Origin: a virus
DNA length: 25,090 bases
Strand: one strand, 5' to 3'
IMG/VR virus record: IMGVR_UViG_3300020465_000090
Span: 1-25,090 of that record
Shown here: one piece after another, positions 5,526-25,090 of the stretch
Position numbering within the stretch: position 1 is the first letter of the stretch
Layout of the letters: every line of letters begins with the position of its first letter
The notes under the pieces: generated by a model
The model's input: the letters and a program-made list of their open reading frames with translations, nothing else
Database searches by the model: none
What the model was told of the DNA's origin: nothing
Made by a program: the position numbers and the translations under genes

Positions 5526-5826
5526 TTACCTTTTCCTCGTACATTTTAATTACTGACTTTATAGGTTCAACAGCAGTCACAACCCAATCAGGTGTCACCA
5601 CTACTTCTTTATCTGCGGATAAAAGAATCCAAGGTGATAAAGAAACTTCAACACTTCTATCATTTTCATGCTGATCTTCAGTCAATAAAATTGGTTGTGT
5701 AGAAGTTACTATATGTGGGCTTGTTAATAAGTATCCACGAAGTTCTTTTTCATCAGGTTCTACCAATTCTTTGGCATCAGCAATTAATTGCTCACCAGAT
5801 TTCAGTATGATTAATTTAACCGACAT
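5509..5826 (-). CDS. Sm-like (Hfq/LSm-fold-like) cyanophage protein
   Basis: A 105-residue, strand-rich protein that starts the polymerase operon. It has the order expected of an Sm fold: a first strand with SGEQL at residues 10-14, a TSPHIV motif at 35-40, a variable acidic loop, a strand with W66, a last pair of strands (VVVTPDWVVTAVE, 75-87) and a helical tail. The protein at 22450-22872 shows the same GE-x-I/L, HP/SP, W and VVT-x-x-E landmarks. Sm-like proteins form rings that bind U-rich RNA, but RNA binding here is an inference from fold similarity. A strong sigma70-type promoter lies directly upstream (-10 at 5848-5853), and a GAGAGAGG purine tract about 12 bases before the ATG could serve as ribosome binding site. 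Confidence 0.6.
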   Translation of the reverse strand: MSVKLIILKSGEQLIADAKELVEPDEKELRGYLLTSPHIVTSTQPILLTEDQHENDRSVEVSLSPWILLSADKEVVVTPDWVVTAVEPIKSVIKMYEEKVNGQSN

Positions 5827-5847
5827 TTTAAATAATTTCCTCTCTCT

Positions 5848-5876
5848 ATTATAGCAAGAAAAAAGGGGATCGTCAA
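5848..5876 (-). promoter_or_regulatory. sigma70-type promoter nested in the hsp20 terminator
   Basis: On the minus strand, TTGACG (5876-5871) is followed by exactly 17 bases and then TATAAT (5853-5848), with an extended -10 TGC directly before it. This matches the bacterial consensus closely. Transcription should start near 5841 and read the Sm-like genes, gp43, uvsX and gp41. The -35 box is formed largely by the loop of the terminator hairpin at 5860-5888. Confidence 0.8.
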
Positions 5877-5888
5877 GATCCCCTTTTT
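5860..5888 (-). terminator. rho-independent terminator after hsp20
   Basis: A perfect 12-bp inverted repeat, AAAAAGGGGATC (5860-5871) and GATCCCCTTTTT (5877-5888), with a five-base loop. It lies immediately after the hsp20 stop codon (5890-5892). Read on the minus strand the GC stem is followed by six T residues. The arms are symmetric, so it could also stop plus-strand transcripts. Confidence 0.88.
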
Positions 5889-5889
5889 C

Positions 5890-6324
5890 TTATAAGTATT
5901 CTTTTCGAGCATGATGATCTGGAACTATCTTCTTTAACTCCACGGTGAGGAGTCCGTCTTCAAACTTGACGGATCCAATCTCCGTATCATCTGTGATCGT
6001 CCAGACCCGTTCAAAGGAGCGTTGGGCCAATCCTTTATGGACAAACGTACCATCAACTTCTGATTCTTCTTTCTTGCCTTCAACATATAGTTTTCCAAAC
6101 TCCGTGAAGACTTTGAGTTCATCTTTCTTAAACCCTGCAAGTGCGATCTCCAATTTCGATTCATGATTATTTAATTGTATCAAATTATATGGTGGATAGT
6201 TTGACGTTTGCATTGGTGCATTAAAAAATCTGTCTAGGTAATCATCCATCCCTATGCCATTTTGTCTTATCACCTTCATCAATTCTGGAAGGTTGGCACT
6301 ATGATATGTTGCTAAGTTAGTCAT
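5890..6324 (-). CDS. hsp20: Hsp20 small heat-shock protein (alpha-crystallin family)
   Basis: A 144-residue small chaperone, a typical cyanophage gene. After an N-terminal arm of about 45 residues, the alpha-crystallin domain runs from YPPYNLIQL to ELKKIVP. It includes the AGFKKDELKV strand-loop, a variable loop around EESEVDG, a SFERVWTI strand and the closing FEDGLLTVEL box (the G-x-L signature). The C-terminal tail lacks a clear I-x-I motif. Small Hsps hold unfolded proteins for refolding; in phage infection they may help capsid or host photosystem proteins. AAAGGAG stands four bases before the ATG, an excellent ribosome binding site. The gene looks monocistronic, with about 100 bases of leader region on one side and a strong terminator on the other. 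Confidence 0.93.
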   Translation of the reverse strand: MTNLATYHSANLPELMKVIRQNGIGMDDYLDRFFNAPMQTSNYPPYNLIQLNNHESKLEIALAGFKKDELKVFTEFGKLYVEGKKEESEVDGTFVHKGLAQRSFERVWTITDDTEIGSVKFEDGLLTVELKKIVPDHHARKEYL

Positions 6325-7242: not shown

Positions 7243-8065
7243 AATTAAGTAGAAGTAATTCTTTACGTTGTTGTTGGTCTTTCATATACTCACCAACAGA
7301 ACGCATAGTATATGTCAAATTAAATTCAGCAGCAGTCCAATCTTTAAATCGATCTTTAACTAACTGAGAAGAATTATACGATACCATCATATCTGAAGTA
7401 TGTCTATCACAATCTTCTGCAAACTTATCATGATCAAATCCTTTATGCATAGAACCTTTCCTACCATAAAGATTATCCTTAATATCATAAGGAGGATCTA
7501 AGTACATAAACAATCCATCATGAATATGATTTTCAAAACAATATTCATATGAATATGAATTGATATGCCAATGAGCAATTATCTCTTGATATCCTACTAA
7601 CTTTTCAATACCACGGAAGGAGAAATTGGAGTCTGATGCTTGTTTTGAGAACGAGGAAGACTCAGTGAGACCAGAGAAACTACACTTATTAACAATATAG
7701 AAAGCAACTGCCCTTTCGAGATCTGTTTTTGTACTGTCATTGATAATCTCCTTTGATTCATTAAAAAGATTCCTTGCAGAATCTGGATTTGGATGAGAAG
7801 TTTTAAGATTGAATAAATCTTTACTTAATTCCTCACCAAACATCTGAAGATTACTCCAGAAGTTTATAAGTGGTTCATAAAGATCATTAACCGTGATCTT
7901 TAAATGTGGATACAACTTACTAACATGTATGGCAACACTTCCACCACCTAAGAATGGTTCACGATATTCTACATACTCTCTAAGATCTGGAAAGAATTGT
8001 CCCATCTTAGTACAAGCACGGGATTTGCCACCAGGATACCTAAGAGGGGTCTTCAGTGCTTTCAT
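7220..8065 (-). CDS. dam: D12-class N6-adenine DNA methyltransferase (Dam-like)
   Basis: A 281-residue methyltransferase that should transfer a methyl group from S-adenosylmethionine to adenine N6 in DNA. It has TPLRYPGGK at residues 6-14, an AdoMet-binding FLGGGS at 38-43, and the catalytic DPPY at 190-193. The order of motifs is that of Dam/D12 enzymes. Such enzymes in phages usually protect their own DNA from host restriction. No restriction endonuclease is next to it, so it looks like an orphan methylase. It overlaps the neighbours at both ends (26 bases with the 71-aa gene, 23 with gp62). The recognition sequence cannot be read from the protein; GATC is the usual Dam target. Confidence 0.93.
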   Translation of the reverse strand: MKALKTPLRYPGGKSRACTKMGQFFPDLREYVEYREPFLGGGSVAIHVSKLYPHLKITVNDLYEPLINFWSNLQMFGEELSKDLFNLKTSHPNPDSARNLFNESKEIINDSTKTDLERAVAFYIVNKCSFSGLTESSSFSKQASDSNFSFRGIEKLVGYQEIIAHWHINSYSYEYCFENHIHDGLFMYLDPPYDIKDNLYGRKGSMHKGFDHDKFAEDCDRHTSDMMVSYNSSQLVKDRFKDWTAAEFNLTYTMRSVGEYMKDQQQRKELLLLNYGTQGLA

Positions 8066-9385: not shown

Positions 9386-9534
9386 TTTTTTCTGGACTGT
9401 TCATGTTTTAATTGTTTTTCTAACCCAAATTTAATTGTAGTCAGTGGATGATACAATGGAGATTGTCTCTCAATATAATCTTCCAAATGAGCAATATGCT
9501 CAAGTGCAAAAATTAATTTTGTTTCATCATTCAT
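9382..9534 (-). CDS. 50-residue microprotein between pyrE and the psbN cassette
   Basis: A frame of 50 codons beginning MNDETKLIFALEHIAHLEDY and ending EQSRKK-TGA. It fills the gap between pyrE and the 69-aa gene exactly: the start lies eight bases inside the pyrE end, and the stop overlaps the next ATG by four bases (ATGA). This tight fit and phage-like codon use support a real gene. The sequence is helical in the first half, with a short PLYHPLTT linker and a basic end. No homologue recognised. Confidence 0.6.
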   Translation of the reverse strand: MNDETKLIFALEHIAHLEDYIERQSPLYHPLTTIKFGLEKQLKHEQSRKK

Positions 9535-10096
9535 CCTTGGCATCTACTAAATCTTCCAATTTAAAAAGACTAAGAGATTTAAATCCTGCATCCATAATAG
9601 CACGATCACCCCCTTCTTGTCTATCAATAATGGAAATAATGGTATCAACTATATATCCTGCTTCTATAATCTTTAATGCTGCTTTAACAGAAGATCCACC
9701 TGTAGTGATTACATCTTCCAATATAGTTACTTTAGAACCTCGTTTTAAAGTTGGACCTTCTATCCATGCTTCTGTACCATGCCCTTTTGGTTGCTTACGA
9801 ACTATCAAAGCATCTAATGTTTTTGGACGTTCAACACTATGAGATGCCATTGCAACTCCACTTACTAAAGGATCAGCACCAAGAGTAAGTCCTGCTACTG
9901 CAACAGATTCTTTATCTACCAATTCCAATAATAAATGACTAACTAATGATAACCCCTCACCACTCAGAATAACAGGTTTACAATTAACATAATGATTACT
10001 TTCCAAACCAGATGAAAGAACAAACTTACCTTGACGATAAGAACGTTCTTTGATTAATTTAAGAAGTCTTTCTCTATAATTTTTAAGATTTTTCAT
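9527..10096 (-). CDS. pyrE: orotate phosphoribosyltransferase (PyrE)
   Basis: A 189-residue enzyme that joins orotate to PRPP to give orotidine monophosphate, the fifth step of pyrimidine synthesis. The PRPP-binding loop VTILEDVITTGGSS is at residues 123-136, with the two acidic residues ED at 127-128. The flexible catalytic loop lies around RKQPKGHGTEAW (100-111). The N-terminal FVLSSGLESNHYVNCK segment matches the PyrE hood and orotate site. The frame continues one codon upstream to a TTG, but the ATG at 10096 is the natural start. pyrE is found in a number of cyanophages, where it is thought to help nucleotide supply for phage DNA. It lies between gp44 (plus a 33-aa gene) and the small-gene cassette. 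Confidence 0.94.
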   Translation of the reverse strand: MKNLKNYRERLLKLIKERSYRQGKFVLSSGLESNHYVNCKPVILSGEGLSLVSHLLLELVDKESVAVAGLTLGADPLVSGVAMASHSVERPKTLDALIVRKQPKGHGTEAWIEGPTLKRGSKVTILEDVITTGGSSVKAALKIIEAGYIVDTIISIIDRQEGGDRAIMDAGFKSLSLFKLEDLVDAKDE

Positions 10097-10184
10097 CAAT
10101 TTGTTTTTGCCAATGTTTAATTAAAAATTCCAGTTCTTTAATACGTTCTTTCGCAGTTTTAATTTTTTCAGATAGTTTAGTCAT
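10083..10184 (-). CDS. 33-residue coiled-coil microprotein
   Basis: A frame of 33 codons starting MTKLSEKIKTAKERIKELEF and ending in TAA. Its ATG overlaps the gp44 stop by four bases (ATGA) and its end overlaps the pyrE start by 14 bases. It fills the only gap between these two genes. The heptad pattern of I/L residues (LSEKIKTAKERIKELEFLI) predicts a single helix or a short coiled coil. The function is unknown. Confidence 0.55.
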   Translation of the reverse strand: MTKLSEKIKTAKERIKELEFLIKHWQKQIDEKS

Positions 10185-13335: not shown

Positions 13336-13933
13336 TGACTAGACTTTCTGCTTTTTCTTTCCCAAACTTACCTTTAAGGTATCCACTTACTGGATCAAGT
13401 CTAGTCATGTAAGCATCAAAGTCTTTATATACACCAGTATCGTTACCAGTGGGTTTTTCATATTCTAGCATATCTTTGTACTTAGTCAAGTAAGTCTTGA
13501 ACATATCAAGATGCTTATCAACTTCATCCATTTTACAATACCTAACAAATATATTCTCTGAGAAATGATTACCCATTTCAAAGAATCTATAATCTTTTTC
13601 TGCTTTTGGCAAATCATCAAAAGATAATAAATGATTTTCCACAGGATGTTGATAGTCAAATACTATTATAACCCTATTCTCATTGAATCCCATAAGATCC
13701 AAACCAAAACAGGGAAGATTACTTCCAGTCTTAGGATAGATGATGTTGTTGTAAATACAAGTTGTTTCATTCCAGATTTCTACCTCTCTAGATTTAATTA
13801 TATAAGGATGAGTGTATGTTTTGGCAGTAAGATAAGTGTTCTTACTTTCCCAATTTGCCCAGACACTACCAACCCCATTATGAAGGTCGATAGTGTCATG
13901 CAATACATTTTTATACTCTTTCCACAGATTCAT
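13310..13933 (-). CDS. pebS: ferredoxin-dependent bilin reductase, PebS type (phycoerythrobilin synthase)
   Basis: A 207-residue bilin reductase that strongly resembles cyanophage PebS, which reduces biliverdin IXalpha to phycoerythrobilin in two two-electron steps with ferredoxin. Shared blocks include YPKTGSNLPCFGLDLM, VIIVFDYQHP, FFEMGNHFSENIFVRYCK, and LDPVSGYLKGKFG, then VNDFLF at the end. The two aspartates that correspond (from memory) to the catalytic D105 and D206 of P-SSM2 PebS are D79 and D180. The N-terminus is about 20 residues shorter than in PebS, in a part expected to be disordered. A PcyX-type enzyme is a possible alternative, since it makes the same pigment. No heme oxygenase is in the window. 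It overlaps cobS by 23 bases and is likely co-transcribed with it. Confidence 0.9.
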   Translation of the reverse strand: MNLWKEYKNVLHDTIDLHNGVGSVWANWESKNTYLTAKTYTHPYIIKSREVEIWNETTCIYNNIIYPKTGSNLPCFGLDLMGFNENRVIIVFDYQHPVENHLLSFDDLPKAEKDYRFFEMGNHFSENIFVRYCKMDEVDKHLDMFKTYLTKYKDMLEYEKPTGNDTGVYKDFDAYMTRLDPVSGYLKGKFGKEKAESLVNDFLFCYD

Positions 13934-15026
13934 TATCGTCTCCAGTATTTAAGTTAAAGTCAGCATCTACCTTGTCATATAATTCAAGGAATGACTGTTT
14001 GGTTTCTTCATCGAACCTATTTACACATACACCAATTGCCTTTGCTTTATCACCAAAGATGCTATAAGCACGTATGATATGAACTAAACGACGAGTACTA
14101 ATGATGTCCTCAATACCACCATCATAGAATGTCTTACGAATAATGTCACCCCAATCTACAAGTCTTGCAAGAAAGTTTGCATCAGTAACACCTAACTTAG
14201 AAGCAACTGCACTTAAGATTTTATTCTCAACAGAAGGTGCTGGATAATCCTGTTCAAAGGTTACAGGGAATCGCTCAAGGAAGGCTTCATTAAGCACGTT
14301 AGTTCCAATAAATCGTCCGTCATCTGAACCTTTACCTTTAGTGTTTGCGGTTGCGATGATGTTGAAACCCTTCGCTGGTTGGATGAATCTTCCGATTTTT
14401 TTAAGGAAAACTCCCTTACCCTCAAGGATTGATTGGAGGCAGAGGATTTTGTTTGAGGCAAGGTCGATTTCGTCAAGGAGCAAGATAGCTCCTCTGTTGA
14501 GAGCTTGAATAACTGGTCCGTCATGCCAGACTGTGGCACCATCAACAAGACGGAAACCGCCAATAAGATCGTCTTCATCTGTTTCAATAGTAATGTTTAC
14601 ACGAATAAGTTCTCTACCTAATTGAGCACATGCTTGCTCTACAGAGAAGGTCTTACCATTTCCAGATAGACCAGTAATAAAAGTAGGATAAAAAATCCTG
14701 CTTTGTATAATTTTTTTAACATCTCCAAAAGATCCGAATTTAACAAATGTGTCATCTTTTTCAGGAACTAAATTTTGCTCTATAGATGGTTCTACAGCAG
14801 GAGCATTAAAAGACTTTTCAATATTTTCTACTACTTTTGTGGTTACTTCAAGATTCCACTTCCCTTTAGATACTTTATATTTCTGTATTTTCTTAGTTAC
14901 TGTTGAATAACCTATGTCATTCATAGCACAAAATGCCTTAACATCAGCAGCAGTAAATTCTGATCCGTATGTACTTCTTAATCCATCAACTGCTTGTTGT
15001 TCTGTCATCTTAAGTTCAAAAGTCAT
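13911..15026 (-). CDS. cobS: CobS-like AAA+ ATPase (MoxR-type)
   Basis: A 371-residue AAA+ protein of the type called CobS in cyanophages. The N-terminal 95 residues are a small helical, possibly DNA- or partner-binding region, followed by a linker. Walker A is GLSGNGKT at 119-126, Walker B LLLDEID at 182-188, and a sensor 1 segment (NIIATANTKG) follows. In bacteria CobS joins CobN and CobT to insert cobalt into the corrin ring; whether the phage protein does so is unproved, and related MoxR ATPases act as chaperones with VWA-domain partners. Such a partner (CobT-like, 15336-17519) lies just upstream. The gene has its own promoter region after the terminator at 15063-15085 and begins a long operon ending at regA. 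Confidence 0.88.
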   Translation of the reverse strand: MTFELKMTEQQAVDGLRSTYGSEFTAADVKAFCAMNDIGYSTVTKKIQKYKVSKGKWNLEVTTKVVENIEKSFNAPAVEPSIEQNLVPEKDDTFVKFGSFGDVKKIIQSRIFYPTFITGLSGNGKTFSVEQACAQLGRELIRVNITIETDEDDLIGGFRLVDGATVWHDGPVIQALNRGAILLLDEIDLASNKILCLQSILEGKGVFLKKIGRFIQPAKGFNIIATANTKGKGSDDGRFIGTNVLNEAFLERFPVTFEQDYPAPSVENKILSAVASKLGVTDANFLARLVDWGDIIRKTFYDGGIEDIISTRRLVHIIRAYSIFGDKAKAIGVCVNRFDEETKQSFLELYDKVDADFNLNTGDDNESVERV

Positions 15027-15329: not shown

Positions 15330-15337
15330 TATTTATC
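15330..15337 (-). promoter_or_regulatory. possible late promoter inside the end of the CobT-like gene
   Basis: The minus strand reads GATAAATA, seven of eight bases of the T4 late consensus. It overlaps the CobT-like stop codon and stands 24-31 bases before the ATG at 15306, the spacing expected for a short leader. Confidence 0.4.
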
Positions 15338-17519
15338 AAGCAACAAGTTCTACAAACTCACTCAATATTTTCTTATTCATCTTTTTATTTTTAAGACTTT
15401 TGAAAAATGCCCTTTTAATTTGTGCTTTTGTTGCATCACTCTTAACTTCAAATTCATCATCATTTGCTAAAGCACTGGAAGATAAACCAAAATAAGAATG
15501 ATATCCAGAAGTCTTAATATTAATTGCCTTATGTTTTTTCCAATCTGCCATCAATTTATCACGATCTTCATATTCAGAATAAATGCGAATAAAGGGATTA
15601 GCATCTCTACCACCAATAAGACGAATACCAATAAAATTAGTATTAGGGAAAGACTGACGTAAATCTTTCAAAAGAACATTGGTTACACCTGCCCAGTAAC
15701 AAAGACCTTGAAGAGAATAACTATATCCAGTTTTTCTATTACGAATAACAGATCTATCATCAATCTGATTACTTCCCATGAATCCATCTTCACCATCCCA
15801 ATGGCGATGAAATTTTTTACTATATCTTAGAGGAGCACCTTCACCATCAGTAAGAATTACACACTGAACTTTTTCCACATTATACTTTTTCTGGAATGTT
15901 GGAATAATTTTATGTAAAGCAATCAAAGATTCATTTAAAGGTGTTCCAGAAAGATTCATTCCCATAGGGATTGTATAAGTAACCCAACTATTATAATGAA
16001 ATGAACATGCAATACGAAAAACACTTTTCATTTGCTCTTCTAGAGTTTTAGAATTTACATTACTTGTAAATAAATTCATTAAGGAAAATGTTTCTTCCAC
16101 TAAAGCAACATAATCTTCTTTATCATATGCAGGTAATCTTACACCAGTTTTATCATCATTAACAAATGGACAATCATTAGTAAATGCATAAACCTCAAAA
16201 GGAATTTGAACTTTCTTACAGAACCATAGTAAATGGTATAATTGCTTAATAGTATCTTCCATTACTTGTGCCATTGATCCAGACCAATCAAGCACAAATA
16301 CCAATCCATGATTCTTACCATCAGGCAATACAGTTATTTTCTTAAAAAGATCTTCATTATATTTGTAAGTATGAAGTTTTGATGTATTAAGAACTCCTGT
16401 TTTGGCAGTAGTAGCACGAGCATATGCACTAGCAGACTTCTTACACTCAAACTCTTTAACTAGGTAATTAACTTCTTTTTGAGAATCTCTTTTAAACTTT
16501 GCATACTGAGAATCAACTTCTTCAAATATATCTTCGGGAAGATGATGAAATTGTTGTCTCCTTTCAGCAAATCTTTCTATTTCAGCAGCCCAGTGAAGAT
16601 CAATCTCATTATGTATTACATTATTATTGATTATAACTCTATTCAAATCTAACTCAGGAAGTTCTACATAAGTATTTTCACGAGTATTATTCTTATTATT
16701 AAGATTTTTTAATGCTTCACTAAGAGAATCAGCAGTTTGTGCTATTGGTTCATTTGTACCATTCGTACCACCTACAGGATTACTAGGATCGGAATTACTA
16801 TTATCAATATCGCCATTAACATCATCCATCCCAGAACCTTGAGGATCAGACCCAGACTCTGAATCAGAACTAGGATTATAGTCAAGATCAACATCATCTT
16901 CCATACTGCTGGTGGAACTTTCCCCAACAATTTTCCCAGAAACTTGTTCAGTTTCCTGATTGGATTCCTGTTCCTGCTTGCAGAAATTATATAACGCTTC
17001 TGCTGCGGATAAGGTTTCATCAAACGTTTCTGCATTTTTAATTAAATCGACAATCGGAGTTTCAATAGATGAAAAAGAGATATCAACCCACGAACCAACC
17101 TTGAAATATAGATTAACCCTATCAGCAAGATTAAGAGTATCGAGATCTTTATCATCTAATTCAAAGAAATCTTGGTTATTCAATTCATTATAACCTCTAT
17201 AGAAAGTTTTGGCAATACCTCCGTACCTTCTTTTCATCAATTTCTCAATTCTAACATCTTCAGCAATATTGACAAACTGGGGTGACATTTTATATCCTTC
17301 TAACCACCAATCCCTATCAGGTGTGTAAAGAGCATGTCCAACTTCATGTGCTACCAAAGAATCAAATACATTATCACTAGCATAGTCCCAATTTGGTAAT
17401 GTTAAAACTCTAGTGCGTACATTGAACTGAGCAGTTTCTACACTTCTATGCTCTACTATAAGGTCTTCAGTGGCAAGGAGTTTTGCAAGTTGTGATTTAA
17501 TTTCGTGATTAACTGGCAT
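15336..17519 (-). CDS. CobT-like protein: HExxH metallopeptidase-like N-terminus plus VWA domain
   Basis: A 727-residue protein, the largest after gp43. Near the N-terminus is HEVGH (58-62), a zinc-peptidase motif, followed by NIAEDVRIEK (84-93), where an acidic residue could be the third ligand. A long acidic, asparagine/serine-rich linker runs from about 186 to 260. The C-terminal half contains a von Willebrand A domain with the MIDAS start DWSGS at 411-415. This build recalls bacterial CobT and the VWA partners of MoxR ATPases; the phage also has a CobS-like ATPase nearby. The pair may act as a metal chelatase or as a protein-remodelling machine; I cannot decide. A good ribosome binding site (AAAGGA) precedes the ATG, and a TATAAT lies at 17543-17548. 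Confidence 0.82.
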   Translation of the reverse strand: MPVNHEIKSQLAKLLATEDLIVEHRSVETAQFNVRTRVLTLPNWDYASDNVFDSLVAHEVGHALYTPDRDWWLEGYKMSPQFVNIAEDVRIEKLMKRRYGGIAKTFYRGYNELNNQDFFELDDKDLDTLNLADRVNLYFKVGSWVDISFSSIETPIVDLIKNAETFDETLSAAEALYNFCKQEQESNQETEQVSGKIVGESSTSSMEDDVDLDYNPSSDSESGSDPQGSGMDDVNGDIDNSNSDPSNPVGGTNGTNEPIAQTADSLSEALKNLNNKNNTRENTYVELPELDLNRVIINNNVIHNEIDLHWAAEIERFAERRQQFHHLPEDIFEEVDSQYAKFKRDSQKEVNYLVKEFECKKSASAYARATTAKTGVLNTSKLHTYKYNEDLFKKITVLPDGKNHGLVFVLDWSGSMAQVMEDTIKQLYHLLWFCKKVQIPFEVYAFTNDCPFVNDDKTGVRLPAYDKEDYVALVEETFSLMNLFTSNVNSKTLEEQMKSVFRIACSFHYNSWVTYTIPMGMNLSGTPLNESLIALHKIIPTFQKKYNVEKVQCVILTDGEGAPLRYSKKFHRHWDGEDGFMGSNQIDDRSVIRNRKTGYSYSLQGLCYWAGVTNVLLKDLRQSFPNTNFIGIRLIGGRDANPFIRIYSEYEDRDKLMADWKKHKAINIKTSGYHSYFGLSSSALANDDEFEVKSDATKAQIKRAFFKSLKNKKMNKKILSEFVELVA

Positions 17520-17727: not shown

Positions 17728-18486
17728 TCATATCAAATTTTCATAAAAATCTATTGAATCTTTTAATTTGGATCTTGCTAATTTTAAATCTTCATGAGAT
17801 AATTCAACATTAAAATTCCTTACATTTTGAGGATCAGAAAACACATTAATCATTGGAACTTCAAGAAATTCTGTCAATTGCTTTTGTCTCTTCTGATCTA
17901 GAAAAAAATGTTCAGTGGTCAAACACATGACATTTTCAAAAACTTTTTCATATTTTTCTTTTACATCTTTATATAGAGATTGAAGTTTAAGATTGTTTAT
18001 ATATTCCATAAATAAATCTCTTTTATTTTTAAGATTTACACCAAAGCAACTAGCATCATGATGAAGCATACCAATGTATGAAATTAGTCTTCTAATAGGT
18101 TCCCTATAAATTAAAATTATTTTTACATCAAAATAATCTTTCAATTTATTATTTACTTGATATAAAAATTTTTGTGGTAGAAGAAAATAAGATTGACTAA
18201 AATCAGCTGGATTTGAATGAGAATTTAAATATGATATGTAATTATCTAAATTATATGGATATAATAATCCTCTTCTTTCATTCTCAGTAATGGCATATGA
18301 TACTTGTGGATTAATTAATTCTGATGGATACATTGGATCACCATTATCAGCATTATTATGAAGTAAAGAAAGATAATGAATCTCTTTATGATCTGATCCT
18401 TTAATAATATTATTACAACTTAACAAATTCCATAATGAAGTCGTTCCTGATCTGGGAATACCAGGACATAATATTAATTTTTTCAT
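17728..18486 (-). CDS. sulfotransferase-domain protein
   Basis: A 252-residue PAPS-dependent sulfotransferase-like protein. The 5'-phosphosulfate-binding loop is GIPRSGTTSLW (PRSGTTS at 11-17), and the 3'-phosphate-binding region is IILIYREPIRRLISYIG with R128 and S137. These two motifs at the expected distance make the fold call secure. The acceptor is unknown; sugars, lipids or tyrosines are typical in the family. It follows gp46 with a four-base overlap (ATGA), so it is transcribed with the recombination genes but has no evident role there. Its codons are more AT-rich and lysine/asparagine-rich than neighbours, which suggests recent gain. Sulfotransferase-like genes have been noted in some marine phages as far as I recall. 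Confidence 0.82.
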   Translation of the reverse strand: MKKLILCPGIPRSGTTSLWNLLSCNNIIKGSDHKEIHYLSLLHNNADNGDPMYPSELINPQVSYAITENERRGLLYPYNLDNYISYLNSHSNPADFSQSYFLLPQKFLYQVNNKLKDYFDVKIILIYREPIRRLISYIGMLHHDASCFGVNLKNKRDLFMEYINNLKLQSLYKDVKEKYEKVFENVMCLTTEHFFLDQKRQKQLTEFLEVPMINVFSDPQNVRNFNVELSHEDLKLARSKLKDSIDFYENLI

Positions 18487-24338: not shown

Positions 24339-24360
24339 GAAATTTAAACATCACTAAAAA

Positions 24361-24369
24361 TATTTATAG
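24361..24369 (-). promoter_or_regulatory. T4-type late promoter for uvsW
   Basis: The minus strand reads CTATAAATA, containing the full T4 late consensus TATAAATA (24368-24361). It lies 22 bases before the uvsW ATG in the intergenic space between the divergent genes. Confidence 0.7.
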
Positions 24370-24370
24370 T

Positions 24371-24378
24371 CTAAATAA
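24371..24378 (+). promoter_or_regulatory. weak late-promoter-like motif before the plus-strand gene
   Basis: CTAAATAA on the plus strand, 21 bases before the ATG at 24399, resembles the late consensus in part. There is no better candidate for the only plus-strand gene, and no clear ribosome binding site is seen. Confidence 0.25.
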
Positions 24379-24398
24379 AGTAGTTTTATCTAGAATTA

Positions 24399-25090
24399 AT
24401 GACTGCTCTGATTGACCCGAAAAAATATACTAAAACACTTGACCTATTAAGGTCATTTTTTTTGGCTAGAAATTTCCTAGAAGTCCATACTCAAAACCGT
24501 TTAAGCATTCTTGCTGCATGTGAAGATCCAGAAACAGTAGCAACCTATGAATATAATGGAGAAGTATGGCCATTACCACAAACTGGTCAGATGTGGTTGG
24601 AATATGAACTACTTAAGAACCCAGATGTTGCAGGGTTTTTCTGCTTATCAACTTCATATAGAGCAGAACCAAATCCTGTAGAAGGAAGACATGAAGTTAT
24701 TTTCCCTATGTTTGAGTTTGAGATGCACGGAGGTGTAGAAGAACTTGAAAAAATGGAGATTGAATTATGTGAGCATCTTGGAATACCTTTAGATTCAGAA
24801 AATATTAAAACCTACGATGATTGGTCATGGCAATTTAATGCAAAAGAACTTGAGCATGAACATGAAGAAAAAATTAGTCGTGGTATGATTACTAAATTCC
24901 CTGAATGGACATCACCTTTCTGGAATATGGCACGTAATGATGATAAGACTAGTAAAAAAATTGATGTTATATTAAATGGTATGGAAACTATTGGTAGTGC
25001 GGAACGCAGCACCAATAAGAAACAGATGCGTGATACATTCCATACTATCTCTGATGGTGAATATGCTAACTTACTTTACAAATTATTTGG
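24399..25090 (+). CDS. class II aminoacyl-tRNA synthetase-like protein (Asp/Asn/Lys type), 3' end outside window
   Basis: An open frame of 230 codons to the window edge, on the opposite strand from everything else. It shows the three signatures of the class II catalytic core of the Asp/Asn/Lys subgroup. Motif 1 is RSFFLARNFLEVHTQNRLS (about 18-36). Motif 2 is STSYRAE (84-90), followed by GRH (96-98) and IFPMFEFE (101-108). A stretch at 189-203 (DVILNGMETIGSAER) matches the subgroup pattern D-x4-G-x-E-x-x-G-x3-R before motif 3. There is no room for the N-terminal OB-fold anticodon-binding domain, as motif 1 begins within 20 residues of the ATG. It may therefore be a paralogue with another substrate, such as asparagine synthesis or modification of a protein or amino acid. 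Confidence 0.75.
   Translation, partial: MTALIDPKKYTKTLDLLRSFFLARNFLEVHTQNRLSILAACEDPETVATYEYNGEVWPLPQTGQMWLEYELLKNPDVAGFFCLSTSYRAEPNPVEGRHEVIFPMFEFEMHGGVEELEKMEIELCEHLGIPLDSENIKTYDDWSWQFNAKELEHEHEEKISRGMITKFPEWTSPFWNMARNDDKTSKKIDVILNGMETIGSAERSTNKKQMRDTFHTISDGEYANLLYKLF

Follow-up and report, generated by a model that had tools for sequence, protein, structure and literature searches.

The window analysed here is a viral record of 25,090 nt with T4-like replication genes on board. Its last open reading frame, on the plus strand, starts with an ATG at 24399 and has no stop codon up to the contig end; the gene is incomplete, and residues 1–230 out of approximately 266 are encoded in the contig. 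The following features of the locus are referred to below:

24399..25090 (+): first 230 residues of an AsnRS-like stand-alone catalytic domain (PHROG 29758; 'tRNA ligase', T4-GC 194, of P-SSM2 and P-SSM7)
24339..24398 (no strand): divergent intergenic region of 60 nt between uvsW (−) and the synthetase-like gene (+), from the ORF positions
9527..10099 (−): pyrE-like orotate phosphoribosyltransferase gene, approximately 14 kb from the synthetase-like gene (Pfam Pribosyltran, 18 bits, under the cut-off; 54–61% to pyrE-like ORFs of L024, L067, and L076)

The pyrE-like and synthetase-like genes are not adjacent, though they possibly serve the same pathway. Between them, also on the minus strand, a CobS-like AAA+ protein (13911–15026) and then a CobT/VWA-like protein (15336–17519) were recognized by eye from the translations, in the arrangement of other cyanophages. 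A sulfotransferase-like ORF (17728–18486, −), possibly a cargo gene, was seen by eye between the CobT-like gene and gp46.

The synthetase-like protein

The ORF matched Pfam tRNA-synt_2 (class II D, K, and N synthetases) with an E-value of 1.4e-11 and 44 bits (cut-off 25 bits), and the profile of PHROG 29758, annotated as unknown function, matched its whole length (2.7e-147). Against a 94% identical relative (L001), the first 100 codons had 12 synonymous and no non-synonymous changes, which indicates a real gene under purifying selection. At least 596 relatives of the protein were retrieved by the IMG/VR scan. The nearest named relatives are the 'tRNA ligase' genes of the Prochlorococcus myoviruses P-SSM2, P-SSM5, and P-SSM7, and a cyanophage gene survey tables the gene under that name in gene cluster 194 without comment (PMC3037559). 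In a literature search that took in neither bioRxiv nor most subscription papers, this entry was the only mention of the gene found, and no pyrimidine connection of the gene was found.

Full-length relatives have approximately 263–290 residues and consist of a single class IIb catalytic domain that spans motifs 1 to 3. The elements below were located in the window protein:

24492..24494 (+): Gln32, invariant across the family in the alignments, where class II enzymes have the motif-1 proline
24522..24524 (+): Glu42 (in ACEDP), at the alignment position of the flipping-loop Glu of AspRS and AsnRS
24579..24602 (+): QTGQMWLE, residues 61–68, an AsnRS-type amino-acid loop by alignment (SGQLxxE), lacking the AspRS Lys (SPQxYKQ)
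24654..24722 (+): motif 2, SYRAEPNPVEGRHEVIFPMFEFE, residues 86–108, with the ATP-binding Arg88 and with Glu106 (Glu in AsnRS, Asp in AspRS), from the alignment and invariant columns
24978..25007 (+): GMETIGSAER, residues 194–203, the G-x-E-x-x-G-x3-R element by alignment, with Arg203

A preliminary description, made from the window alone, had called the catalytic motifs clear. This holds for motif 2 and GMETIGSAER, but the hallmark proline of motif 1 is an invariant Gln. Motif 3, for which the description had pointed beyond the window, is GGGIGVTR in the full-length relatives. As the description had stated, the protein begins directly at motif 1, and it stops right after motif 3; thus no anticodon-binding domain, including an N-terminal OB-fold, was found on either side in the window ORF and the full-length relatives. 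Its assignment as a class IIb paralogue lacking such a domain is thereby borne out.

In the tree built with AsnRS, AspRS, LysRS, and EpmA, the family formed one separate clade on a long branch (support 100) and did not cluster inside AsnRS or AspRS, in agreement with the placement outside these enzymes proposed earlier. The tree and the missing anticodon domain rule out an ordinary AsnRS or AspRS. An EpmA-like protein modifier, although EpmA/PoxA (GenX) is also a stand-alone class IIb catalytic domain, was rejected by profile scores and the tree: the NCBIfam EpmA models gave 18.1 and 14.9 bits for the window protein (cut-offs 264 and 287), both EpmA/PoxA and LysRS form separate clades, and their partner genes differ. 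Distant versions (45–50% identity) in two jumbo phages (L083, 735 kb; L084, 484 kb) have no adjacent tRNA and fell on the cellular branch.

AsnRS is the closest known enzyme. Among solved relatives, it gave the best profile match (47 bits), followed by AspRS, LysRS, and archaeal asparagine synthetase. A predicted model of 264 residues (42 aligned sequences, mean pLDDT 92), which covers the catalytic domain only, resembled AspRS, AsnRS, and archaeal asparagine synthetase A with TM scores of 0.75–0.78; those for the class IIb fold of AsnRS (PDB 1x54 and 8h53) were 0.76–0.77. The flipping-loop Glu, the GQxxxE loop, the Glu that follows motif 2, and the arginine of GxxR all align with AsnRS, and motifs 2 and 3 are present. 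The family differs from AsnRS in the absent OB-fold, the motif-1 Gln, the separate long-branch clade, and a type II partner tRNA (see below), and the NCBIfam AsnRS model gave only 21.7 bits for the window protein (cut-off 414).

In an alignment with AsnRS and with bacterial and archaeal-type AspRS, the residues recognizing the side chain agreed with AsnRS and not with AspRS: Glu106, a Leu at the AspRS lysine position, Glu68 of GQxxxE, and Arg203 (GSAER), which aligns with the side-chain-binding Arg of both enzymes. The roles of these positions are presumed to be those in AspRS and AsnRS structures, and Glu42 is likewise presumed to hold the alpha-amino group, as its AspRS counterpart does. Because the side-chain pocket is of the AsnRS type, the enzyme probably activates asparagine.

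A partner tRNA in viral relatives

The window shows no tRNA gene near the synthetase-like gene, as had been described, only because the contig is cut short: relatives have one starting approximately 8 nt past the stop codon, and that of the window phage would be expected approximately 120 nt beyond the contig end. Of the 159 viral loci whose downstream sequence extends for 130 nt or more, 148 had a tRNA 3′ of the stop codon, usually 4–12 nt away and in a few cases up to approximately 200 nt. Since the longer tRNAs are often placed out of register by ARAGORN, a stem-pairing script was used for the tRNA statistics.

All 148 partner tRNAs had the anticodon GUU, and 147 had both U1-A72 and the discriminator G73. 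They were 82–108 nt long, all with a long variable arm (type II), and folded into a cloverleaf in which 19 of 24 pairs showed two-sided changes (covariation). Residue 37 was a pyrimidine (U or C) in 132/148 and residue 33 was not U in 13/148, whereas the other tRNAs of these contigs had a purine at 37 and U33 in 95/98 each. U37 as an absolute feature was dropped, as A37 occurred in 16/148 and C37 in 7/148. The CCA end was encoded in none of the 72 tRNAs of the cyanophage group and in all 76 of the remaining groups.

When the search was reversed and the tRNA pattern was scanned for, 111 new loci were obtained, and the synthetase-like gene lay directly upstream in all 101 that had upstream sequence. 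Together with the covariation, this rules out chance pairing of gene and tRNA. A covariance-model search for the tRNA also matched ordinary type II tRNAs. The tRNA thus sits next to the enzyme gene, is conserved, and did not turn up apart from it, as in a dedicated synthetase-tRNA pair.

The enzyme also occurs without an adjacent tRNA, at L299, L246, L248, L262, L294, L297, L298, and L053 and in the jumbo phages. Cellular family members had no adjacent tRNA of their own. A strict tRNA pattern (GTTT required, with A37 versions outside the pattern) gave no match in cellular genomes with a pyr-linked enzyme, and its matches in the cellular set were confined to records with an enzyme of the viral kind. 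The special tRNA is therefore not strictly required across the family, being absent at some viral loci and from cellular pyr-linked genomes, and it may be an add-on or a stand-in for the host tRNA-Asn.

Some tRNA loci had further peculiarities. At L016, L019, L034, and L049, a block with long inverted repeats (AAAGATGGTCTGAGTATT...AATACTAACTGACCATCTTT) is inserted between gene and tRNA, approximately 90 nt past the stop codon. For P-SSM2 (L081), the tRNA-Asn is annotated at 7825–7910 and placed by ARAGORN at 5813–5900, the record being approximately 2 kb off the sequence position. Downstream of cyanophage tRNAs (e.g., L004 after 6161), usually no more than approximately 20 nt away, lies a T-rich run with TATTTA(T) at its end; it resembles a reversed T4-type late promoter.

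Pyrimidine genes beside the enzyme

In two viral contigs (L278 and L318), pyrD, the enzyme gene, the tRNA, and pyrE (a small PRTase) stand in a row. The order pyrD-enzyme-tRNA was found in L242, L243, L245, and L088, and enzyme-PRTase, with the tRNA missing, in L299. The viral and cellular PRTases belong to one family, with an invariant PRPP motif. In cyanophages, including the window phage, the pyr genes are not adjacent to the enzyme.

A genome scan found homologues with 50–67% identity in Patescibacteria, Midichloriaceae, Chlamydia, Dependentiae, DPANN archaea, Pasteurella atlantica, and others. Among the neighbours of 80 cellular-genome homologues, pyrE/pyrF was the commonest cluster (14 loci), followed by pyrD (12 loci), with which dnaX, from one Patescibacteria synteny group, was tied. 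Examples of the pyr neighbours were confirmed by Pfam. The runs were enzyme-pyrF-pyrE-pyrD-prsA in Midichloriaceae (this order at L102, L103, and L112), enzyme-pyrEF-pyrD in Myxococcota (this order at L124 and L132), enzyme-pyrE-pyrF in Gammaproteobacteria (this order at L140 and L162), and pyrD/enzyme-pyrF-pyrE on the complete P. atlantica chromosome. A pyrE/pyrF/pyrD operon with the enzyme thus recurs in unrelated genomes; many Patescibacteria loci have no pyr neighbour. The preliminary description had suggested a paralogue acting on other substrates, with which the metabolic look of the cellular context agrees, but the link to a tRNA and the pyrimidine setting had been missed.

The early genes of the pathway were searched for by profile in 31 enzyme-bearing genomes, mostly MAGs of small genomes, in which gene absences rest on these searches. 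Small genomes may also have shed the early pyr genes for unrelated reasons, and some parasites, such as Haemophilus, retain pyrD, pyrE, and pyrF without the early steps. CarB was found in 3/31, PyrB over the cut-off in 5/31, PyrC in 4/31, and dimer-type PyrC in none. The late genes were frequent (PyrD 21/31; PyrF 30/38, a match being missing in the other eight), and CarB, PyrB, PyrD, and PyrF each exceeded the cut-off in all 14 control genomes. Incomplete assembly does not explain early genes at 10–16% against late genes at 68–79%. Compared with the canonical CarAB-PyrB-PyrC-PyrD-PyrE-PyrF pathway, PyrD, PyrE, and PyrF are retained beside the gene, but most enzyme-bearing genomes are without CarB, PyrB, and PyrC. 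PyrB and PyrC coexist with the enzyme in several genomes (Coatesbacteria G011, G043, and G044).

On the finished P. atlantica chromosome, CarB was not detected, nor was PyrC with either of its two models. The only carbamoyltransferase match there (116 bits) falls short of the PyrB cut-off of 237 bits and is probably ornithine carbamoyltransferase. A second pyrF, of the Midichloria kind, lies beside the enzyme gene, with another pyrF elsewhere, and the enzyme-pyrF cluster looks like a transferred module. Within the order of Midichloriaceae, the enzyme gene is sporadic (4/131 genomes, one copy broken). A broken copy with several in-frame stops was seen in a Rickettsiales genome (G057:C13:19003-19700).

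Proposed function and alternative readings

The gene context suggests a need for a source of dihydroorotate, so that a pyrimidine precursor would be the product, and the pocket points to asparagine as the substrate. The protein may accordingly represent an undescribed AsnRS-type family that activates asparagine for a CarAB/PyrB/PyrC-independent route to dihydroorotate or orotate, with a dedicated tRNA added in marine tailed phages; we judge the chances of this reading to be about even. It is weakened by the genomes that have PyrB and PyrC as well as the enzyme, by the Patescibacteria loci lacking pyr neighbours, by the eight genomes with no PyrF match, and by the separate position of the pyr genes in cyanophages. 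PyrD, PyrE, and PyrF would then convert the enzyme-derived dihydroorotate or orotate to UMP. The long-variable-arm phage tRNA-Asn(GUU) would act with the enzyme as acceptor, carrier, or cofactor, not mainly in codon decoding, and might take the activated asparagine, hold it, or help catalysis.

A more specific version, in which the enzyme alone replaces CarAB, PyrB, and PyrC by making dihydroorotate from asparagine, bicarbonate, and ATP via Asn-AMP, and phage pyrimidine synthesis is partly tRNA-linked, is offered tentatively and is rather doubtful. Asn-AMP would be formed as in AsnRS, and CO2 would react with its alpha-amine to an N-carboxyanhydride, as aminoacyl adenylates and CO2 are reported to do rapidly (PMC6462974). 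The beta-amide nitrogen would then attack the C2 carbonyl of the anhydride and open the ring to give L-dihydroorotate. The net reaction would be Asn + HCO3− + ATP → dihydroorotate + AMP + PPi.

An unlikely role is that of a translation aid: a minimal AsnRS would charge an orthogonal type II tRNA-Asn for reading AAC and AAU codons during infection, the tRNA being possibly altered against host anticodon nucleases. tRNA genes are common in phages, and some phage tRNAs are known to have altered anticodon loops by which they escape host nucleases. The retained asparagine identity set (GUU, U1-A72, and G73), the AsnRS-like pocket, and the adjoining gene fit such a role. The unusual residues 37 and 33 of the partner tRNA, set against the purine 37 and U33 of nearly all other tRNAs of these contigs, lead one to expect poor decoding, and both the cellular pyr operons and the viral pyrD-enzyme-tRNA-pyrE runs would be left unexplained. 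The pyr operons and the tRNA also speak against an enzyme like archaeal asparagine synthetase A (AS-AR; PDB 3p8t/3rex), which would activate the beta-carboxyl of aspartate and make free asparagine from ammonia, its neighbours being incidental genes of nitrogen metabolism. AS-AR is likewise an AsnRS-derived single catalytic domain of similar length and has the same fold (TM 0.75–0.76 for the predicted model); it was compared by profile and fold, outside the tree. To our knowledge, it has no tRNA partner. The profile match to 3p8t (1.5e-4) reached 24 bits against 47 bits for AsnRS, and Glu106 and the lack of an AspRS-type Lys are better suited to a side chain ending in an amide than to one ending in a carboxylate, so that we regard this activity as quite improbable.

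Equally improbable in our view is an indirect link to pyrimidines, in which importers of dihydroorotate or orotate keep PyrD, PyrE, and PyrF and the enzyme does another job (e.g., RNA modification or asparagine sensing) within the same transferred cluster. The sporadic and once broken gene in the order of Midichloriaceae is consistent with this, and Midichloriaceae are reported to be without nucleotide biosynthesis except for a few genes (PMC10847448). Contiguity with pyrE, pyrF, and pyrD, repeated in several unrelated lineages and in viruses, is unlike that of a random passenger.

Textbooks present de novo pyrimidine synthesis as a single six-step pathway that is nearly universal. If the asparagine route proposed above is correct, this pathway would have a second point of entry, derived from a tRNA synthetase and widespread among Patescibacteria, DPANN archaea, intracellular bacteria, and ocean phages; auxotrophy calls in symbionts and uncultured lineages would change, and nucleotide metabolism would gain a tRNA. 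Should the proposed pathway prove wrong, the many marine viral contigs in which a synthetase-like enzyme is strictly conserved together with a type II tRNA-Asn of its own would still present an unexplained, testable system. In layout, not in kinship, the pair resembles PylRS-tRNA(Pyl) and other dedicated pairs, with a synthetase-like protein beside its own odd tRNA; it differs from them in the ordinary sense anticodon GUU, an anticodon loop that appears ill-suited to decoding, and the nucleotide-metabolism context.
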